DNA of 64,000 bases from Azorhizobium caulinodans ORS 571 (GTDB taxonomy: Bacteria; Pseudomonadota; Alphaproteobacteria; Rhizobiales; Xanthobacteraceae). Shown piece by piece: positions 35,224 to 49,600 of this stretch; the first letter of the stretch is position 1, and each line of letters opens with the position of its first letter. The notes under the pieces were generated by a model, which saw only the letters and a list, made by a program, of their open reading frames with translations, searched no databases and had not been told where the DNA came from. A program made the translations under genes and the position numbers. Location: positions 1,245,501-1,309,500 of the forward strand of contig NC_009937.1 of NCBI RefSeq assembly GCF_000010525.1, read 5' to 3'.

Positions 35224-36183
35224 ATGGCTTCCCACAGCAAGGTCATCATCATCGGGTCCGGCCCGGCCGGGTACACGGCGGCGATCTACGCCGCCCGCGC
35301 CATGCTGGAGCCGATCCTGTTCGAAGGCATCCAGCCCGGCGGCCAGCTGACCATCACCACCGATGTCGAGAACTACCCTGGTTTCGCCGATGTCATTCAG
35401 GGGCCATGGCTCATGGAGCAGATGCGCGCGCAGGCCGAGCACGTCGGCACGCGCATCCTCTCCGAGCATGTGGCGAGCCTCGACCTCTCCCGGCGTCCGT
35501 TCAAGATGGTGACGGAAGGCGGGGAGACCTATGTGGCGGACGTCGTGATCCTCGCCACCGGCGCGCAGGCCCGCTGGCTCGGCCTCGGGTCGGAGGAAGC
35601 CTATCGCGGCTTCGGCGTTTCCGCCTGCGCCACCTGCGACGGCTTCTTCTATCGCGGCAAGGACGTGGTGGTGGTGGGCGGCGGCAACACGGCCGTCGAG
35701 GAAGCGCTCTTCCTCACCAATTTCGCCAGCAAGGTCACGCTGGTGCACCGCCGCGACAAGCTGAGGGCCGAGCGCATCCTCCAGGACCGCCTGTTCGCCC
35801 ACCCGAAGGTCTCGGTGGTGTGGAATGCGGCCATCGATGAAATCCTCGGCGTCAGCGAGCCCGTATCGAAGGTGACGGGCGTGCGGCTGAAGGACGTGAA
35901 CACCGGCGCCCATGCGGAGCTGGCCACCGATGGCGTGTTCATCGCCATCGGCCATGCCCCCTCGACGGCGCTGGTGGAAGGTCAGCTTCGGATCAAGTCC
36001 GGCGGTTATGTTTGGACGGCGCCGGATTCCACGGCCACCTCCGTGCCCGGCGTCTTCGCCGCCGGAGACGTGGCCGACGACGTGTTCCGACAGGCGGTGA
36101 CGGCCGCCGGCCGGGGCTGCATGGCGGCGCTGGAGGCGGAACGCTTCCTCGCGCAGCACGAGGTGGCGGAAGCCGCAGAGTAG
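35224..36183 (+). CDS. trxB: Thioredoxin reductase
   Basis: FAD-binding [16 protein letters not shown] at residue 11 on, the redox motif CATC (Cys135, Cys138) in [20 protein letters not shown]-binding [14 protein letters not shown], and a C-terminal FAD motif [20 protein letters not shown]. It passes electrons from NADPH to thioredoxin in the cytoplasm. The ATG at 35224 has a GAGGACGG site and starts the conserved region; a GTG upstream at 35092 is rejected. 319 residues, normal for low-molecular-weight TrxR. Confidence 0.96.
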
Positions 36184-36317: not shown

Positions 36318-37208
36318 ATGGACTGGGACAAGCTCAAGGTTTTTCACGTGGCCGCCGAGGCCGGGTCCTTCACCCATGCGGGCGAGACACTGGGCCTGTC
36401 CCAGTCCGCCGTCAGCCGCCAGGTTTCGGCGCTGGAGCAGGAACTGAAGGTTCCCCTGTTCCACCGCCATGCCCGCGGCCTGATCCTGACGGAGCAGGGC
36501 GAACTGCTCTATCGCACCGCCCATGAGGTGTTCCTCAAGCTGGAATCGGCCCGCGCCCAGCTCACCGACAGCCGCGAGAAGCCGAACGGCGAACTGCGCG
36601 TCACCACAACGGTCGGCCTCGGCACCCATTGGCTGACCGCCCGCGTGGGCGAGTTCGTGGAGCTTTATCCGGACATCCGCATCCAGCTCATCCTCACCGA
36701 CGAGGAACTGGATCTCGCCATGCGCGAGGCGGACGTCGCCATCCGCATGCGCCAGCCGGTGCAGCCGGATCTGGTGCAGCGCAAGCTCTTCACCGTGCAT
36801 TTCCACGCCTATGCCTCGGTGGATTATCTCAAGCGCCATGGCCAGCCGCGCACGCTGGAAGAACTGGACAAGCACCGCATCCTCCTGCTCGGCGGGCCGA
36901 TCCCGAGCTATTTCCAGGGCCTCAACTGGCTGGAGCATGCGGGCCGCGACGGTTCGACGCCCCGCGTGCCGGCCTTCGAGGTCAACAGCGTGCTCGGCCT
37001 GAAGCGGGCCGTGGAGCGCGGCGTCGGCATCGGCACGCTGCCCGATTATCTCTCGGATGACTCTTCGTCGCTCGTGCAGCTCTTCACCGACCGCGAGACG
37101 CCTCAACTGGAGGCTTACTTCACCTATGCTCAGGAAATGCGCTCCGTGGCGCGCATCCAGGTGTTCCGGGACTTCCTGATTTCGAAGGCGCAGCGCTGGA
37201 GCTACTGA
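36318..37208 (+). CDS. LysR-family regulator (LsrB/VtlR-like by position)
   Basis: A LysR winged helix (LKVFHVAAEAGSFTHAGETL, LSQSAVSRQVSALEQELKVP) precedes an effector domain (GELRVTTTVGLGTHWLTARV...). The 296-residue protein lies directly downstream of trxB and upstream of a terminator-ended small RNA candidate. In Sinorhizobium, Agrobacterium and Brucella the LysR regulator LsrB/VtlR occupies the same position (trxB - lsrB - abcR) and activates an AbcR small RNA. Identity with LsrB/VtlR is therefore a synteny-based inference. The ATG at 36318 is preferred to the GTG at 36315. Confidence 0.82.
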   Translation: MDWDKLKVFHVAAEAGSFTHAGETLGLSQSAVSRQVSALEQELKVPLFHRHARGLILTEQGELLYRTAHEVFLKLESARAQLTDSREKPNGELRVTTTVGLGTHWLTARVGEFVELYPDIRIQLILTDEELDLAMREADVAIRMRQPVQPDLVQRKLFTVHFHAYASVDYLKRHGQPRTLEELDKHRILLLGGPIPSYFQGLNWLEHAGRDGSTPRVPAFEVNSVLGLKRAVERGVGIGTLPDYLSDDSSSLVQLFTDRETPQLEAYFTYAQEMRSVARIQVFRDFLISKAQRWSY

Positions 37209-37330
37209 GCGTGACAGGGGAATGACGCGGGCGTCGTTGGATCACAAATGAGCCAAGCGCCGCGCACATGCCTGACATGCGGTCATTCCGCATTGCATTA
37301 TGCCTACAGGACGTGCACTTTGCACTTGCA

Positions 37331-37436
37331 CTGATCGCGCCGTGAGCGGCGCAGTCAGGTGTTCCCCTCTGGAAGGTTCGCCGCTCTGCGGCGATACTTG
37401 CCGGGCCTCTCGCGAGGTCCGGCATTTTTCTTTTCT
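37331..37436 (+). ncRNA. AbcR-like (alpha-r15 type) trans-acting small RNA candidate
   Basis: Three stems in about 105 bases: GCGCCG-TGAG-CGGCGC (37337-37352), CGCCGC-TCT-GCGGCG (37379-37393) and an 11-bp terminator stem (37399-37424) followed by TTTTTCTTTT. Between the first two stems is an unpaired C/U-rich stretch (TTCCCCTCT, 37362-37370) able to pair with Shine-Dalgarno sequences. Hfq-dependent AbcR RNAs of rhizobia have this layout and lie downstream of a LysR gene next to trxB, as here. The 5' end is an estimate; only one copy is seen. Confidence 0.55.
37399..37436 (+). terminator. Strong Rho-independent terminator
   Basis: TGCCGGGCCTC and GAGGTCCGGCA form an 11-bp stem with one G-T pair and a TCGC loop, then TTTTTCTTTT. 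It is the best intrinsic terminator in the window and sits about 190 bases past the LysR stop with no ORF before it. Confidence 0.85.
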
Positions 37437-37661: not shown

Positions 37662-37904
37662 ATGGCGCAACACCTTCTCCCGGCGGACAACGCGCTTGCG
37701 TTTCCGCTTCTGGCCGGGCCTTTTCCGCCGCCCGAGCCGCCCGAGCCCATTCCCCCCATGCCACCACTCACGCCGCCGCCTCCGACCCGCGAGCCGGACG
37801 ATCTGCCGGAGCCTGGCCCGGATCTGCCGCCCCTTCCCGAGGGCGATCCCTCCCGCGAGCCGCGGGAAGAGCCCGGCCCGCCGCCTATGCCAATGAACGC
37901 ATGA
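37662..37904 (+). CDS. Small proline-rich protein (80 aa)
   Basis: The ATG has a perfect AGGAGA site 5 bases upstream. After MAQHLLPADNALAFPLL the protein is almost entirely PPxP, PEPP and EPGP repeats (PPPEPPEPIPPMPPLTPPPP). No membrane or signal sequence. It probably forms a polyproline-II rod or binding linker; no family recognised. It lies between the small RNA candidate and the dipeptidase gene, both of which it may precede or follow transcriptionally. Confidence 0.55.
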   Translation: MAQHLLPADNALAFPLLAGPFPPPEPPEPIPPMPPLTPPPPTREPDDLPEPGPDLPPLPEGDPSREPREEPGPPPMPMNA

Positions 37905-37989
37905 CCCTTCGAGGCTCGGGTGGCCGCTGACGGATCGGTGCATGGACACGGGCTCTCGAACGGGCTCTATGGAGCGCGGAGGTGCTTCC

Positions 37990-38622
37990 ATGTCCGTGTC
38001 CGCCGAACCTGTCCTGCCTGCGCTCTTCGTCGACGTCCCCGCAGTGGTCCCGAACGTGATCGTGGATCTGCGCTATGCCGGGCCGAACAATTTCGTCGGG
38101 GTGCGGGTGGACGGGTATGAAGCCGAGCGGGCGCTGCTGACCCGGCCGGCGGCGGAAGCGGCCGCCCGCGTTGCCGAAGGGCTGGCGCGGCAGGGATTGG
38201 TGCTGAAGCTGCTGGATTGCTATCGCCCCACGCGGGCCGTTGCGCATTTTGCCCGCTGGGCCGCGGATACGAACGACCTCGGCACCAAGGCCGATTTCTA
38301 TCCCGACCATGACAAGCCGGAGCTGTTCGATCTCGGCTATATCGCCGGCCGCTCCAGCCATTCGCGCGGCTCGACCCTCGACCTGACGCTGGCCCATGCC
38401 TCGGACGGCACCGAGCTCGACATGGGCACGCCGTTCGACCTCTTCAGCGAGCGCTCCTGGCCGGCCTCGCTGGCGGTGACGGACGCGCAGCGCGACAACC
38501 GCCGTCTGCTCGCTGCTGCCATGACGGACGCGGGCTTCGAGCCCTTCCTCATGGAATGGTGGCACTTCACCCTGAAGGGCGAGCCGTTTCCCGACACCTA
38601 TTTCGACGCGCCGATCCGCTGA
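37990..38622 (+). CDS. D-alanyl-D-alanine dipeptidase (VanX/DdpX family)
   Basis: The VanX/peptidase M15D motifs are present: VDLRYAGPNNFVG, LLDCYRPTRAV, SSHSRGSTLDLTLA (SxHxxGxAxD zinc motif) and EWWHF (third zinc ligand with the catalytic Glu). The enzyme cleaves D-Ala-D-Ala, and in Gram-negatives DdpX is used for peptidoglycan recycling. The ATG at 37990 has GGAGG 8 bases upstream; an in-frame ATG at 37942 adds 16 non-conserved residues. No signal peptide, so cytoplasmic. It is convergent with the selenium cluster, stops 9 bases apart. Confidence 0.88.
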   Translation: MSVSAEPVLPALFVDVPAVVPNVIVDLRYAGPNNFVGVRVDGYEAERALLTRPAAEAAARVAEGLARQGLVLKLLDCYRPTRAVAHFARWAADTNDLGTKADFYPDHDKPELFDLGYIAGRSSHSRGSTLDLTLAHASDGTELDMGTPFDLFSERSWPASLAVTDAQRDNRRLLAAAMTDAGFEPFLMEWWHFTLKGEPFPDTYFDAPIR

Positions 38623-39036: not shown

Positions 39037-39487
39037 GCGGCGTCTCCGGCATGTAGTAATCGAAAAGCTGCCAGAAGGAGCTTGCGCGAGTCTGTTCATA
39101 CCAAGCTTCAAAGGCGGCCATCTCCGCCGCCGGGTCGGCTTCCACCGGGCTCGCGCCATCCTCGGCCGGATGCGCCGCGCCGAACAGGGCCAGCGCCAGC
39201 GGCGTGAGACGCTCCAGAACCTGCGTGCGCGCCTCGCTCTCGCTCTGCCAGTCGAAACGCTCGCGCACATGGGCCTGCGCGGCCGCGACCGCCGCTTCCG
39301 GCGTCTCGGCGGCGGTGACGCGCGCCACGAGGGCGCGGAGGAAGTTCAGGCGGCGATAGGCAATGGTGCGCTCGGTTGCGAGGCGTGCGGTCGTCTCCGC
39401 CACCTCCTTGCGGAAGGCTTCCTCGCGCAGGTCGGCGGCACGGGCGGCCTCATCGAGGCGCGCGATCATCGCGTCGGCTGGGGTCAT
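39023..39487 (-). CDS. Unknown helical protein coupled to selB (154 aa)
   Basis: Its ATG overlaps the selB stop in an ATGA, with AGAGAAG about 8 bases upstream. Residues 1-110 are predicted helical (ARLDEAARAADLREEAFRKE, VAETTARLATERTIAYRRLN) and the C-terminus is aromatic (YEQTRASSFWQLFDYYMPET). No signal, TM or metal site. No family recognised. The overlap chain selB - this ORF - the next ORF argues that all three are translated from one message and that both unknown proteins serve the selenium/formate pathway. Confidence 0.62.
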   Translation of the reverse strand: MTPADAMIARLDEAARAADLREEAFRKEVAETTARLATERTIAYRRLNFLRALVARVTAAETPEAAVAAAQAHVRERFDWQSESEARTQVLERLTPLALALFGAAHPAEDGASPVEADPAAEMAAFEAWYEQTRASSFWQLFDYYMPETPRVDY

Positions 39488-41589
39488 TGCCGCTTCTCTT
39501 TGGGGGGCGTCGGGGAAAGTGGCGGAAGAGAGTGGGAGTCGAACCCACCAAGGACCGGCTCGCGGCCCCTCCCGGATTTGAAGTCCGGACGCCCCACCAG
39601 GGACGCTTCTCCTCCGTGCGCCGCAACCGCATCTGGGGCGGCGGGCGAATTGTCAGCCGGCGCATCATCGCTGCTCGTGCGGAACAGGTCCAGCCGGTGC
39701 GGATTGATGCGACGAAGATCGCCCCGGCGCAAGGTCACGCCGTGCCGATCGAAGAATTCCAGGATCTGGATCGCCACCTTGCGCCCGTTTTCCACTTCAT
39801 CGCGGAACTGGGCGGCGGTGAAGTTGCCGTGGGCGGCGGACAGGCGGGCGATGATGCCGACCATCTCGCCAACGGTGGCGCGCAGGAAGAAATGGTCGTG
39901 CGCCACCTCGTCCACGCGGGCAAGGCGCCCGAGCAGCTTCATCAGGCGGCGGATTTCCGCCTCCGGCACCTCGATCAGACCGGCGATGTCGCGCACGCGC
40001 GGTGGGCGGAAGCGCTCCTCGCCGGCGAGCAGCGGGGCGACCCGTGCCCAGTTCGCCTCATCGAGCGGCGTCAGGCGCACCTCGAAGCCGGCGCGCCTCA
40101 CCCAGGCGCCGTCGAGCGCGATCTCGCGCGCCTGCGCCAGCGCCTGAAGGGCCGCCTTGAAGGCGGGCGCCGGGAGGCGCGGTTCCGCCTGCATGCGCAG
40201 CCGTTCGATGCCGATGCCGGGCAGGTCGGGATTGTCCGCGTGAAAGGTGTCGAGCGTGCCGAGCAGCCGCTCATGGAAGGTCGCCCAGCGCGCGCCGGAG
40301 AGCACGACCGCCGTGTCGCCCACGGAAAGCGCCTTGAGGTCGAGATCGCGGATCAGGGCCGGCACGGCATCGCTGGCCAGCGCCCGGTCGCGGGCGAAGG
40401 TGGCAAGGTCGAGATGGAAGGGCGGCAGATCCAGCAGGTGGGCTAGGGCAACGGCGGCATCCGGTTCGGCGATTGCGCCGAGTTGTGCGAGGCGTTCCGG
40501 TGTGCGGCGCTTGCGGGCGGGGCCGCGCAGATCGAGAAACACGCCGCCGCCGATGGTGCGCTGGGCGGAGGTGTCGCGGATGACGAAGCGGTCGCCCGCC
40601 GCCGCCGCGATGGGGGCGTCCAGCACCAGTTGCACGAGCCCGGTCTCGCCGGGCTTCACGGCCTCTTCCAGCAGCACGATGCGGGCGCCCACCTCGCGGG
40701 CGGCGTGGTGCAGGCGCACCGGGAACCACTGGCCGACGGGCTTGGGCTCGCCGGGGAGCACGCGCAGTCGCGCGTCGATATGGTCGGCGGGGGCGTGGAG
40801 CGTGTCGGCTAGCAGCACGTCGCCGCGCGAGAGGTCATCTTTGGAGAGGCCGTCGCCGGCAATGTTGATGCCGCAGCGGTCGCCCGCACGGCCGATGTCG
40901 GAGGCGCGGTCCTGCGCGCGGATGGAGCGCACGCGGGCGGGACGGCCGCTCGGGCTCAGCATCACCCGGTCGCCCACCCTGACCTCACCGGACAGGACAG
41001 TGCCCGTCACCACGGTGCCGGTGCCGGAGAGGGTGAAGGCGCGGTCCACGGCAAGGCGGAAACGGCCCTCGGCGGCGCGTCTGGCAAGGCGCGCGTTCGC
41101 CGCCTCAAGCCGGGCGCGGATGTCCGCGACGCCGGCGCCGGTCACGGTGGAGACGGGCAGGATCTCCGCACCCGCCAGCACCGTGCCGTCCAGCGTGGCG
41201 GCGATTTCGGCGGTCACGGCGGCAAGGCGATCTGCGTCCACCAGATCGGCCTTGGTGAGGGCAACGAGGCCGTGGCGCACGCCCAGCAGGTCGATGATGG
41301 CGAGATGCTCGCGGGTCTGGGGCATCACGCCGTCATCGGCGGCCACCACCAGCACCACGAAATCGATGCCGCCGGCGCCCGCCAGCATGGTGTGGACGAA
41401 CTTCTCGTGCCCCGGCACGTCGATGAAGCCCAGCACCGCGCCATCGCCCGCCGGCATGTAGGCGAAGCCGAGGTCGATGGAGATGCCGCGGGCCTTCTCC
41501 TCCTTCAGCCGGTCCGTATCGACGCCGGTGATCGCCCGCACCAGCGAGGTCTTGCCGTGGTCGATATGTCCTGCTGTGCCGATGATCAT
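39484..41589 (-). CDS. selB: Selenocysteine-specific elongation factor SelB, reading through the tRNA-Sec gene
   Basis: N-terminal GTPase with G1 [10 protein letters not shown]3 DVPGHE and G4 TKAD, EF-Tu-like domains II-III ([20 protein letters not shown]), then four winged-helix domains that bind SECIS RNA (last recognisable part around [20 protein letters not shown], residue ~640). The frame continues about 60 residues further, and codons 659-690 are the tRNA-Sec gene itself, before a TGA at 39484-39486 that overlaps the next ATG. Total 701 residues; E. coli SelB has 614. The start is 5 bases after the Sel1-repeat gene. It brings Sec-tRNA to the UGA of fdoG. Confidence 0.93.
39520..39615 (-). 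tRNA. selC: tRNA-Sec (anticodon UCA)
   Basis: The 96-base gene encodes GGAGGAGA at the 5' end, pairing as an 8-bp acceptor stem (one G-T pair) with TCTCTTCC at the 3' end, followed by G and an encoded CCA (39522-39520). The anticodon TCA lies at 39581-39579 in the loop CTTCAAA between CCGGA and TCCGG, and the T arm reads GGGTTCGACTCCC. A long variable arm is present. These are the hallmarks of bacterial selenocysteine tRNA. It lies entirely inside the selB reading frame, same strand. Confidence 0.95.
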
Positions 41590-41594
41590 GGTGC

Positions 41595-42392
41595 TCAGCC
41601 CGCGCCGGGCAGTGGCGCCGCCGCGATGCGTTCCGCTTCGGCCTGCTGATCGGGCGAAAGCGCCTCGCGCGCGCTGGTCATGAAGGGGGCGGCAAGCTGG
41701 CTGCCGCCGGCCTGTGCGCGCAGCAGCCAGGCATAAGCGGCGACGGGATCGCGCGGCACGCCGGAGCCGATGTGATAGGCGGCGCCCAGCATGGCCTGCC
41801 CGTCCGCATCGTCTCCCTCGGCGCCCTTCTGCCACCAGCGGGCCGCCTCGGCGGCATCGCGCTCGACGCCCAGCGCGTTGTGATAGAGCATCCCCATGCG
41901 GGTCATGGAGGAGGCGACGCCCTGTTCGGCGGCGGCTTCCGCCCAGCGGCGGGCTTCCGCCACATCGGCCGGGATGACTTCGCCCTCGAGCAGCATCCAG
42001 CTCAGCATGTCCTGCGCCGGGGCATCGCCCTGCGCGGCGGCGGCGCCATAAAGCTCGGCGGCGTGGACGTAATCCTGCGGCACGCCCTCGCCCTTGAAAT
42101 AGAGGGCAGCGAGATTGCGCTGGCCCACCGGATCGCCCGACTGGGCCGACAGGCTCAGCCACTTCTGCGCCATCTCGGGATCGCGGGCGACGCCGAGCCC
42201 CTCGGCGAAGCAGGCGCCGATATTGTTCTGGGCGCGGGCGATGCCTTCGCGCGCCAGCGGCTCCCAGAGCGCCAGCGCGCCCTCATAATCGCCGCTCGCG
42301 GCGGCATCGAGGGCGCGGCCCATGCGCGCCTCCACGCTCTCGCTCGGGGGCGGGCAGGGGGCGGGGCGGCGGAGAAAATCGAACAGGCCCAT
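41595..42392 (-). CDS. Sel1-like repeat (SLR) protein in the sel operon
   Basis: The 265-residue protein holds about five to six Sel1-type repeats with the A..G....A..W...A...G consensus, for example [40 protein letters not shown] and [23 protein letters not shown] proteins scaffold protein complexes; the name derives from C. elegans sel-1 and is unrelated to selenium. No signal peptide. It sits between selA (1-base overlap, ATG on its TGA) and selB (5-base gap), so it is co-translated with both. Its role in selenoprotein synthesis is unknown. Confidence 0.85.
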
Positions 42393-46606: not shown

Positions 46607-49600
46607 TCACGCCACCGGCCCGGTCGTGGGCTCGATATTGACCAGAAACGCCTTGAACTCCGGCGTCTCGATGTTCGCGTCACCGACGAACGGGGTGAGC
46701 ACGTTCGCGGGGAAGCCCTTCTTGGCCGCGCCCACGAAGCCCCAGTGGATCGGGATGCCGACCACGTGCACCGGCTTGCCGTCGCAGATGAGCGGACGGA
46801 TGCGCTTCGTCACATAGGCCTTGGCAAACACCGAGCCGCGCTTGGACCACACGCGCACCCAGCCGCCATTGTTGATGGACTTCTCCTTCGCGAGCTCTTC
46901 CGAGATCTCCACGAAGAATTCCGGCTGCAGGACCGAGTTCACATGGTTGTTCTTGGTCCAGTAGTGGAAGTGCTCCGTGAGACGATAGGAGGTCGCCGCA
47001 TAGGGGAACTCCTTCGACGCCGGCTCCGCGAACTGGGCGAAGTCGTCCTTGAACACGCGCGCCACCGGATTGCCCCGCACCTTGGGGGCGATCACATTGA
47101 CCAGCGGGCTCTCGAACGGCTCGTAATGCACCGGGAAGGGACCGTCGCGCATCATGCCCCGGGCGAACAGGCGGGACACGCCTTCCGGGTTCATGATGAA
47201 GGGGCCGACGTCCTGCGGCTTCGCCGTGGGGGCGATGTCGGGCACGTCGTAGCCGGTCCACTTGGCCCCGTCCCACCACAGCAGCTTGCGGGTGTCATCC
47301 CACGGCTTGCCGTTGATGTCGGCGGAGGCGCGGTTGTAGATGATGCGGCGGTTCGCCGGCCAGGCGAACGACCACTTCAGATACGCTCCGGTGTTGTCGG
47401 GATCGGAATTGTCCCGACGGGCCATCATGTTGCCGTCCTCGGTGAAGGAGCCGGAGTAGATCCAGCAGCCCGCAGCCGTGGAACCGTCGTCGCGCAGCAC
47501 GCCGAAGTTCGGCACCTGCTTGCCGGCGGTCAGCAGCTTCTTGGTGGGATCGTTCGGATCCAGCACGTCGGAGACCACATAGCCGTTGAGCTCCTTGGTG
47601 AGCTCCTCGGGCGTCGGCTCGTCCGGGTTCTTGTAGGTCCAGGAGAGGTTGACGATGGGGTCCGGCAGGGCCCCGCCTTCCTTCCGGTACATCTCCTTCA
47701 GCCGCAGATGGATCTGCGACATGATCCAGGCGTCGGTGCGCGCCTCGCCCGGAGGCGAGCCGGCCGGCCAGTGCCACTGGAGCCAGCGGCCGGAGTTCAC
47801 CAGCGAGCCCTCATCCTCCGCAAAGCAGGTGGTGGGGAGCTGGATGACCTCGGTCTGGATCTTGGAGGGATCGACGTCGTTATAGACGCCGTGGTTTTCC
47901 CAGAAACGGGCGGTCTCCGTTTCCAGCGGGTCCATGATGACCAGCATCTTCAGCCTGGACAGCGCCGCCGACAGCTTGTTCCGGTTGGGGAACGCCTGCA
48001 GCGGGTTGAAGCCCTGGCAGAAGTAGAGGTTCATCTTCCCCTGCTTCATGAGCTCGAACGCGCGCAGGATGTCGTAGGTCGGGACATCCAGCTTGGGCAG
48101 CCAGTCGAACGCGAAGTTGTTCTCCGCGGTCGCCGCCGGGCCCCACATGGACTTCAGGAAGCTCACCATGAACTTCTTGTAGTTCTGCCAGTAGCTCATC
48201 TGGTTCGGCCGCAACGGCTTGAAGCCGCGGGTCGACATGTAGGTGGCGAAGTCCGGTTCCCGTTCCGTGGGCAGGTTCAGGTAGCCGGGGATCATGTTCG
48301 ACATCAGGCCGATGTCGGTGAGGCCCTGGATGTTGGAGTGACCACGCAGGGCGTTCATGCCGCCGCCGCGCACGCCGATGTTGCCCAGGATGAGCTGGAG
48401 CATCGCCATGCAGCGGATGTTCTGCGAGCCCTTGGAGTGCTGGGTCCAGCCGAGCGCGTACATGGAGGTCATCGTCTTGGTGGGCGATGAGCACTCCGCG
48501 ATCATGGCGGCGACCTTCAGGAACTTGTCCTTCGGCGTGCCGCTGATGCGCTCGACCATTTCGGGCGTGTACTGGGCGACGTGGGCCTTGAGCAGGTTCC
48601 AGACGCAGCGCGGATTCTCCAGCGTCTCGTCCACCATGGCATAGCCATCGGGGCCGATCTGGTAATCCCAGGTGGAGCGGTTGTAGTCGCGCTTCTCCTC
48701 GTCATAGCCCGTGAACAGGCCGTCCCGATACTCGAAGCCGTCCTTCACGAGGTACGTCGCGTTGGTGAAGGCTTTGACGTAATCCCACTGCACCTTGTTG
48801 TTCTGGATGCAGTAATTGATCACGCCGAGCAGGAAGGCGATGTCGGAGCCCTGACGGATGGGGGCGTAATAGTCGGCGACCGCCGCGGACCGCGTGAAGC
48901 GCGGATCAACGACGACAAGCTTCGCGCCGCGGTTGGCCTTCGCCTCCACGACCCACTTGAAACCGCAAGGATGTGCTTCGGCGGCATTGCCGCCCATGAT
49001 CACGACAAGATCCGTGTTCCGAATATCGGTCCACGAATTGGTCATCGCGCCACGGCCAAAAGTTGGGCCCAAACTGGACACCGTGGGGCCGTGTCAGACG
49101 CGCGCCTGATTGTCGAAAACCACCATGCCGAGACTGCGAACGACCTTGTAGGTCGCCCAGGCGGTCTCGTTCGTCGTTGCAGAAGCTGCGAGGAAGCCGG
49201 TCGTGGTCCAGCGGTTGACCGTCACGCCGTCGGCATTCTTCGCGATGAAGTTCGCGTCGCGATCGTCCTTCATGGCGCGGGCGATCTTGTCGAGCGCCGC
49301 ATCCCAGGAGATGGCTTCGAACTTGTTCGAGCCCGCGCGCCGGATCATCGGCTGCTTGAGACGGGTCTCGGACTTCACGATGTCCAGAAGGGCGGCGCCC
49401 TTCGGGCAGAGCGTGCCGCGGTTGGTCGGATGGTCGACGTCACCCTCGATGTGGGTGATGTCCGCCTTCTCGCCCTTCTTCAGGTCGCCCTTGGAGAAGA
49501 TGAGGATACCGCACGCCACGGAACAGTAGGTGCAGGTGTTTCTGGTCTCGGTGGTGTTGAAAAGCTTGAAGGGGCGAATCGCAGCTGCCTGCGCCTCTTC

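Follow-up and report, generated by a model that had tools for sequence, protein, structure and literature searches.

Is the strong terminator that follows the lysR gene downstream of trxB in Azorhizobium caulinodans ORS 571 simply the end of that transcript, or does it close the gene of a small RNA? An earlier note on this DNA had proposed an AbcR-like RNA behind lsrB/vtlR and trxB. We analyzed a stretch of 64,000 nt (hereafter the window) of the genome of this strain, which consists of 5,369,772 bases in one contig; the AbcR-like small RNA at 37327-37432 on the + strand is called the sRNA, and Azorhizobium-Xanthobacter-Aquabacter-Ancylobacter is called the clade. The proposal is borne out by an exact aSD2 seed, lysR-linked conservation, a match to a separate covariance model (R1), a regulator box and covariation. 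Judged by homology and place, the locus is very probably a functional gene of an AbcR-type sRNA, which probably acts to turn down nutrient-uptake genes. We hold it highly probable that the product is a single-copy, trans-acting RNA of AbcR type that is activated by LsrB, is aided by Hfq, carries only the aSD2 seed and blocks translation of ABC-transporter mRNA. Homology, structure conservation, lysR linkage, copy number, the box and the seed state were computed, and we infer the expression, start site, LsrB activation, Hfq dependence and targets of the sRNA. The gene order around the sRNA is greA, an Lrp/AsnC-type gene on the opposite strand, trxB, lysR, the sRNA and a VanX-like dipeptidase gene, and the features are as follows.

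35224-36183, + strand: trxB, thioredoxin-disulfide reductase, the upstream neighbor (TIGR01292, 406.9 bits, above cut-off)
36318-37208, + strand: lysR, LsrB/VtlR ortholog of 296 aa (P0001), presumed activator of the sRNA (Pfam HTH_1 and LysR_substrate)
37266-37278, + strand: LsrB/VtlR box ACATGCCTGACAT, with one mismatch to the published consensus GCAT-N3-TG-N3-T
37293-37321, + strand: predicted core promoter from comparison of relatives, TTGCAT at 37293-37298, a 17-nt spacer and a weak -10 element CACTTT at 37316-37321
37327-37432, + strand: AbcR-like sRNA of about 105 nt; start estimated by taking the box to lie at -61 to -49, end set at the T run of the terminator
37331-37358, + strand: SL1, short 5' hairpin of 9 pairs without the aSD1 seed (CUCCUCCC)
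37362-37369, + strand: aSD2 targeting seed UUCCCCUC, eight letters identical to aSD2 of S. meliloti AbcR1/2
37378-37394, + strand: SL2, hairpin UCGCCGC-UCU-GCGGCGA of 7 pairs
37399-37432, + strand: Rho-independent terminator, 11-pair stem at 37399-37424 followed by the T tail TTTTTCTTTT

Farther downstream, the VanX-like D-Ala-D-Ala dipeptidase gene (37942-38622 (+)) matches Peptidase_M15 and stays under the NCBIfam cut-off for VanX proper. A small proline-rich frame (about 37662-37904 (+)) lies between the terminator and this gene; the longer frame enclosing it has no Pfam match. A selenocysteine cassette is also found near the sRNA, with tRNA-Sec and SECIS_3 both above Rfam thresholds (39524-39615 (-) and 49041-49099 (-)), and ORF 39484-42162 (-) is presumably the SelB-like frame of the cassette.

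The naming of lysR and trxB as neighbors in the earlier note was confirmed by Pfam and TIGR01292. The LysR protein (P0001) reached no NCBIfam model at cut-off among the best 25 matches listed, and for this reason the name LsrB/VtlR is given by place and orthology. Because P0001 was matched at E<=1e-80 in 275 of the 297 genomes of the order, and because trxB-lsrB is described as a constant gene pair in Rhizobiales (PMC11975290, section 31), we treat the protein as LsrB/VtlR. LsrB orthologs without any cysteine were observed at all 43 clade loci (36318-37208 (+), L145-L182 and L192) and also at 34 of the 69 sampled loci outside the clade. LsrB of A. tumefaciens is reported as a thiol redox sensor with four cysteines (PMC11975290); the cysteine-free LsrB of the clade must be controlled otherwise.

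The segment 37331-37432 folds as three hairpins, namely SL1, SL2 and the terminator, and the fold energy of 37320-37436 has a z score of -5.4, with none of 200 shuffles as low. A strong terminator after two GC stems had been pointed out before, and we found the same: 11 pairs, behind stems at 37331-37358 and 37378-37394. In the 4.5 kb around it, the other two terminator-like sites have 5 and 6 pairs, and the number of such sites is not beyond chance (3 versus 2.2 in shuffles). Nor is the occurrence of the 8-letter UUCCCCUC in the window (1 copy versus 2.0 expected by chance), so that its weight lies in its place and conservation and not in its presence. In S. meliloti AbcR1/2, aSD2 is UUCCCCUC between SL1 and SL2, and aSD1 is CUCCUCCC in the 5' loop (PMC8844928). 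The CU-rich stretch had been described as unpaired, which is correct for CCUCU at 37366-37370, that is, the 3' part of the seed and the next base (predicted unpaired, 0.80-1.0), but not for the first half of the seed at 37362-37365, which is mostly paired (unpaired probability only 0.22-0.46). Two overlapping + strand frames at the element matched no family when tested against Pfam.

A search of the window with the gathering thresholds of Rfam gave no small regulatory RNA at the sRNA locus. The alpha-r15 search that had been suggested as a check stayed below threshold: in the whole genome at E<=10, the sole match of ar15 (RF02345, AbcR) was 37324-37429, with 21.6 bits against a threshold of 40, over the full length of the model (1-112). 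This score says little because ar15 passes its threshold in only 17 of the 297 genomes of the order and at 1 of 20 sampled LysR loci; the curated model covers only part of the group and is by itself unable to decide for or against. In a permissive local Rfam search, from which one same-clan match was omitted, the best match was suhB/MmgR (RF00519) with 25.4 bits. It is very improbable that the sRNA belongs to this family rather than to AbcR, since the score lies under the threshold of 41, ar15 bears the same clan code (CL00108), and lysR linkage, aSD2 seed and LsrB box are all characteristic of AbcR. No lsrB linkage is known for suhB/MmgR. The two families share an Rfam clan, the match is weak, and alpha-r15 has been described as partly homologous to SuhB (PMC7143759).

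The relation of the sRNA to AbcR was assessed with R1, a covariance model made from 37 LysR-linked RNAs outside the clade and holding 11 pairs only. The seed weighs in this model by construction because the RNAs were picked by an exact seed near lysR, and its E-values are rough, the calibration having been short. R1 placed the sRNA at 37314-37432 in the window (50.9 bits, E 1.8e-11; next match 11.7 bits) and first in the genome (E 1.5e-9; second match 19.9 bits). It also matched four loci, L003-L006, at 38.7-41.4 bits, and at each of them a second copy at 30.2-34.9 bits. These are AbcR tandem pairs at Rfam level (115-127 bits with ar15) from family f24, presumably the Rhizobiaceae, which is absent from R1; the match thus forms a bridge from the sRNA to accepted AbcR RNAs.

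The genome holds one copy of the sRNA by this search, in agreement with the single copy seen earlier. The two R1 runner-ups, L226 and L229, were considered as candidates for a second copy but proved to be plain terminators without a seed and without an Rfam match at E<=0.1; 14 weaker genome matches exist besides. At E<=0.001, R1 matched 129 of the 297 genomes of the order, including the 11 genomes of the same family as A. caulinodans, each of which gave a single match. Separately, an ar35-like RNA was seen at L001:1501-1626 (-) (40.7 bits, threshold 45), overlapping a sub-threshold match to the cspA thermoregulator.

Does the element, then, lack a promoter and represent merely the 3' UTR and terminator of the trxB-lysR transcript, or a small RNA cut from that transcript? 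The sRNA starts about 118 nt after the lysR stop codon and in the same orientation, and between lysR and the element the scan gave no other same-strand terminator-like site, as this explanation would have it. The comparison of relatives is less favorable to it. Two sets of LysR loci were used, the first of 112 loci (32 from searches and 80 hand-picked among the matches listed) and the second of 80 loci taken from named records. In the first set, the exact seed occurred within 1 kb after lysR at 44 of 112 loci in sense versus 3 in antisense, and in the second within 1.5 kb at 63 of 80. The flanks of the seed, which lay outside the selection criterion, are conserved too (mostly CAGCUG before and UGGAAGG after). 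Among the 91 genomes in which both positions were available (of the 129 matching), 65 carry the R1 match on the lysR strand, 89-734 nt downstream of the gene; the other 26 are without such placement, nine of them with the match 21-28 kb off on the same strand. The seed lies 1089 nt from the lysR stop in Bosea sp. 117, at the far end of the range. Such distances, together with the near-constant distance between box and seed in the clade (86-96 nt) and the conservation of SL1 and the seed, neither of which a plain terminator needs, speak against a 3' UTR of trxB-lysR, which we consider improbable.

The nine genomes with a distant RNA belong to group f20/g23 (e.g. G019, G101, G184 and G279), in which the AbcR-like RNA lies 21-28 kb upstream of lysR; the pair was separated there, yet it stayed in the neighborhood.

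The consensus of LsrB/VtlR is GCAT-N3-TG-N3-T (PMC7486931), and in S. meliloti the box of abcR1 lies at -61 to -49 (PMC8844928); from this published spacing the sRNA would start near 37327. The earlier note had placed the element at 37320-37436, and the element is indeed present there, but its start is likelier near 37327 than 37320. A consensus promoter scan prefers CTGACA-N18-CATTAT at 37272-37301, from which the start would be near 37308. Zero-mismatch boxes are no more frequent over the window than expected (5 sites versus 6.4), and none is at the promoter; the one-mismatch box is meaningful only through comparison across loci. With single-letter shuffles as the control (50 per locus), a box with at most one mismatch was found upstream of the seed at all 43 clade loci (about 4 expected) and a perfect box at 24 of 43 (0.2 expected). 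The corresponding counts outside the clade were 56 of 60 (6.2 expected) and 27 of 60 (0.4 expected), although some of these one-mismatch boxes, at odd distances, are probably chance matches. The distance between box and seed, mostly 106-132 nt outside the clade, is shorter within it, more in keeping with a shortening of the 5' domain than with a displaced promoter. Through this one-mismatch box, which is conserved in the clade, LsrB/VtlR may activate the sRNA.

Conservation of structure was examined in three alignments: A1 (37 of the 62 seed-bearing loci outside the clade), A2 (the window and 34 loci) and A3 (the window and 18 loci from Azorhizobium, Xanthobacter, Aquabacter and close metagenome-derived genomes), the last two being drawn from 39 clade loci. 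Left out were L131 (from the box scan and A1), the second seed match of L155, and L137 and L203, which have no terminator by our rule; L203 looks like a true case overlooked by that rule. In the 19 sequences of A3, 96.8% of the cells of the proposed structure are paired, and the structure collapses on sliding by one column. Eleven of its 27 pairs changed on both sides versus 5.5 in shuffles, and none of 500 shuffles reached 11; further pair types in A3 were not above shuffles (326 of 500 as high). SL1 has 98.2% of its cells paired and 5 of 9 pairs changed on both sides, and SL2 has 99.2% of its cells paired, with one pair changed on both sides and five invariant. RNAalifold recovered SL1, SL2 and the terminator from A2, with 11 of 24 pairs changed on both sides. 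For A1 its prediction was limited to the terminator and a mini-hairpin at the seed, with neither SL1 nor SL2, and R1 is for this reason largely a sequence model.

These data also bear on whether the sRNA might be a remnant, a decaying AbcR gene that is no longer expressed. Decay would account for the missing aSD1 and the single copy, and the -10 element is weak. However, the seed and terminator are kept at 39 of 39 clade loci of the second set, and in SL1 5 of 9 pairs changed on both sides, so that a remnant is extremely improbable. A functional AbcR-type gene remains our reading of the locus.

Beyond what the earlier note had described, the 5' hairpin of the sRNA is without the aSD1 seed of known AbcR RNAs. 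An aSD1-type motif was found within 52 nt upstream of the seed at none of the 43 clade loci (the window included; 40 genomes, three met twice) and at 61 of the 62 seed-bearing loci outside the clade. The sole exception, L117, does not show the conserved surroundings of the seed and is possibly no AbcR gene; it was counted among the 62 but otherwise left out. In a tree of 74 LysR proteins (the distinct ones of 112 at full length), the aSD1 state changes once, on a branch with a support of 92; the tree was made by a quick method, 28 of its 71 branches are weak, and nine labels were assigned by hand from the sequences. From sequence comparison, the 5' hairpin of the clade seems to have been shortened, and aSD1 to have gone missing, in one loss. 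The opposite state was seen at L065-L073, nine genomes of the same family from two other genera, which are absent from the LysR tree: their aSD1 is strong and reads CCCCCUCCUCC (CCUCCUCCUCC in one genome), and their aSD2 is weakened, reading AAUCCCUC. Within one family, one seed seems to have been lost each way, the aSD2 half of this statement being drawn from nine genomes.

Which mRNAs could the remaining seed address? The hfq gene is present in the genome. GAGGGGA occurs 4-13 nt before ATG at 90 genome sites versus 12 for the reversed pattern, an excess for which a purine-rich ribosome-binding site suffices as explanation. Start codons in the target tests were set by a crude rule. The target sample held 89 stretches for the 90 sites (two overlapping), and the control was the first 90 of 214 GAGGAGA sites; ABC binding proteins were called by eye from the N-termini of frames of at least 100 aa, with one gene counted twice in each set. 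Binding proteins were not significantly more frequent at seed-complementary starts (8 of 54) than in the control (3 of 43; one-sided Fisher p 0.19). Likewise, PF13458 binding-protein genes (19 of 22 past the filter) showed no better seed pairing than 140 others (p 0.15). One seed-complementary site was noted at G000:C1:4367580-4367602 (-) (L337), 13 or 5 nt before an ATG. Its frame is one that we take to be a NodI-like ABC ATPase, and a link of the sRNA to Nod-factor export is possible.

The best predicted single target is the mRNA of a livK-type binding protein, whose leader carries ACCAGAGGGGAUGACCGU before the AUG; the predicted pairing energy of -27.1 is the lowest of 173 called genes. Close homologs were found in 13 of the 41 genomes searched (own included), at 14 loci. 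The leader site AGAGGGGA is common to five genomes, the three of Azorhizobium and two more from the family, with CCAGAGGGGA in four; their predicted pairing energies range from -24.3 to -27.1, although the four non-query proteins are only 70-89% identical to the query. Since conservation extends over the entire leader, there may be other reasons for it. The site is absent from nine of the 14 loci. At one of these the protein is 84% identical and the start codon ambiguous, and another belongs to a clade member, an Ancylobacter (G077), whose homolog is 60% identical and perhaps not the ortholog.

In S. meliloti, livK is a target of AbcR1 confirmed by reporter (PMC3712013), and its silencing is described as most likely acting via aSD1 and not aSD2 (PMC8844928), the two AbcR seeds acting independently in that species. 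The livK-type pairing predicted here, if real, would use aSD2, unlike that of S. meliloti. We lean slightly towards a reciprocal loss of seeds within the family, in which the clade, with one copy and one seed, lost aSD1 once, aSD2 decayed in the nine genomes, and livK-type control passed from aSD1 to aSD2. Our trust in this is slightly lowered by the site-less homolog of the Ancylobacter and by the report of aSD1 as the seed for livK.

The mechanism suggested by these comparisons may be outlined as follows. Transcription of the sRNA would start at a promoter of its own, under activation by the LsrB/VtlR-type regulator whose gene lies immediately upstream. Assisted by Hfq, the RNA would use its exposed CU-rich seed to pair with ribosome-binding sites of GAGGGGA type and block translation, the livK-type ABC-transporter mRNA being the best predicted target. 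With its 5' hairpin presumably shortened once in the clade and aSD1 gone, the RNA would act by the aSD2 seed only, unlike known AbcR RNAs.

The sRNA resembles AbcR1/AbcR2 of S. meliloti and A. tumefaciens (RF02345) in its site after lsrB/vtlR and trxB, its three hairpins including the terminator, the seed UUCCCCUC, the upstream LsrB/VtlR box and the livK-type candidate target. It differs from those tandem RNAs in its single copy, its shorter 5' hairpin without aSD1, its score under the Rfam threshold and an unpaired stretch before the terminator that is only short. Multiple AbcR copies per genome are reported for Rhizobiaceae and Brucellaceae (PMC3712013). The two AbcR RNAs of Brucella abortus, which use a short targeting motif (PMC5461406), are likened to the sRNA by description, as members of the AbcR family under VtlR control (PMC7486931). 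Pseudolabrys, Rhodoplanes and further relatives have AbcR-like RNAs that share the LysR linkage, the seed and the terminator, and many also the box, but these RNAs keep a C-rich 5' loop of aSD1 type (UCCUCCC, CCCCCC and similar). We do not file the sRNA as a standard alpha-r15 RNA, because it falls below the Rfam threshold, lacks aSD1 and occurs once.

Among the titles listed from the open-licence literature, none was on AbcR in Azorhizobium, Xanthobacter or Ancylobacter, and an earlier mention is possible. The results extend the nutrient-control RNA AbcR to a branch mostly overlooked by the curated model, including the stem-nodulating, nitrogen-fixing A. caulinodans. A system with one copy avoids the redundancy of AbcR1 and AbcR2 that complicates work in Sinorhizobium. 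The clade-wide absence of aSD1 amounts to a natural deletion experiment and predicts mRNAs that would leave AbcR control. If the reciprocal loss of seeds is true, the target set of each seed would become readable by comparative genomics.
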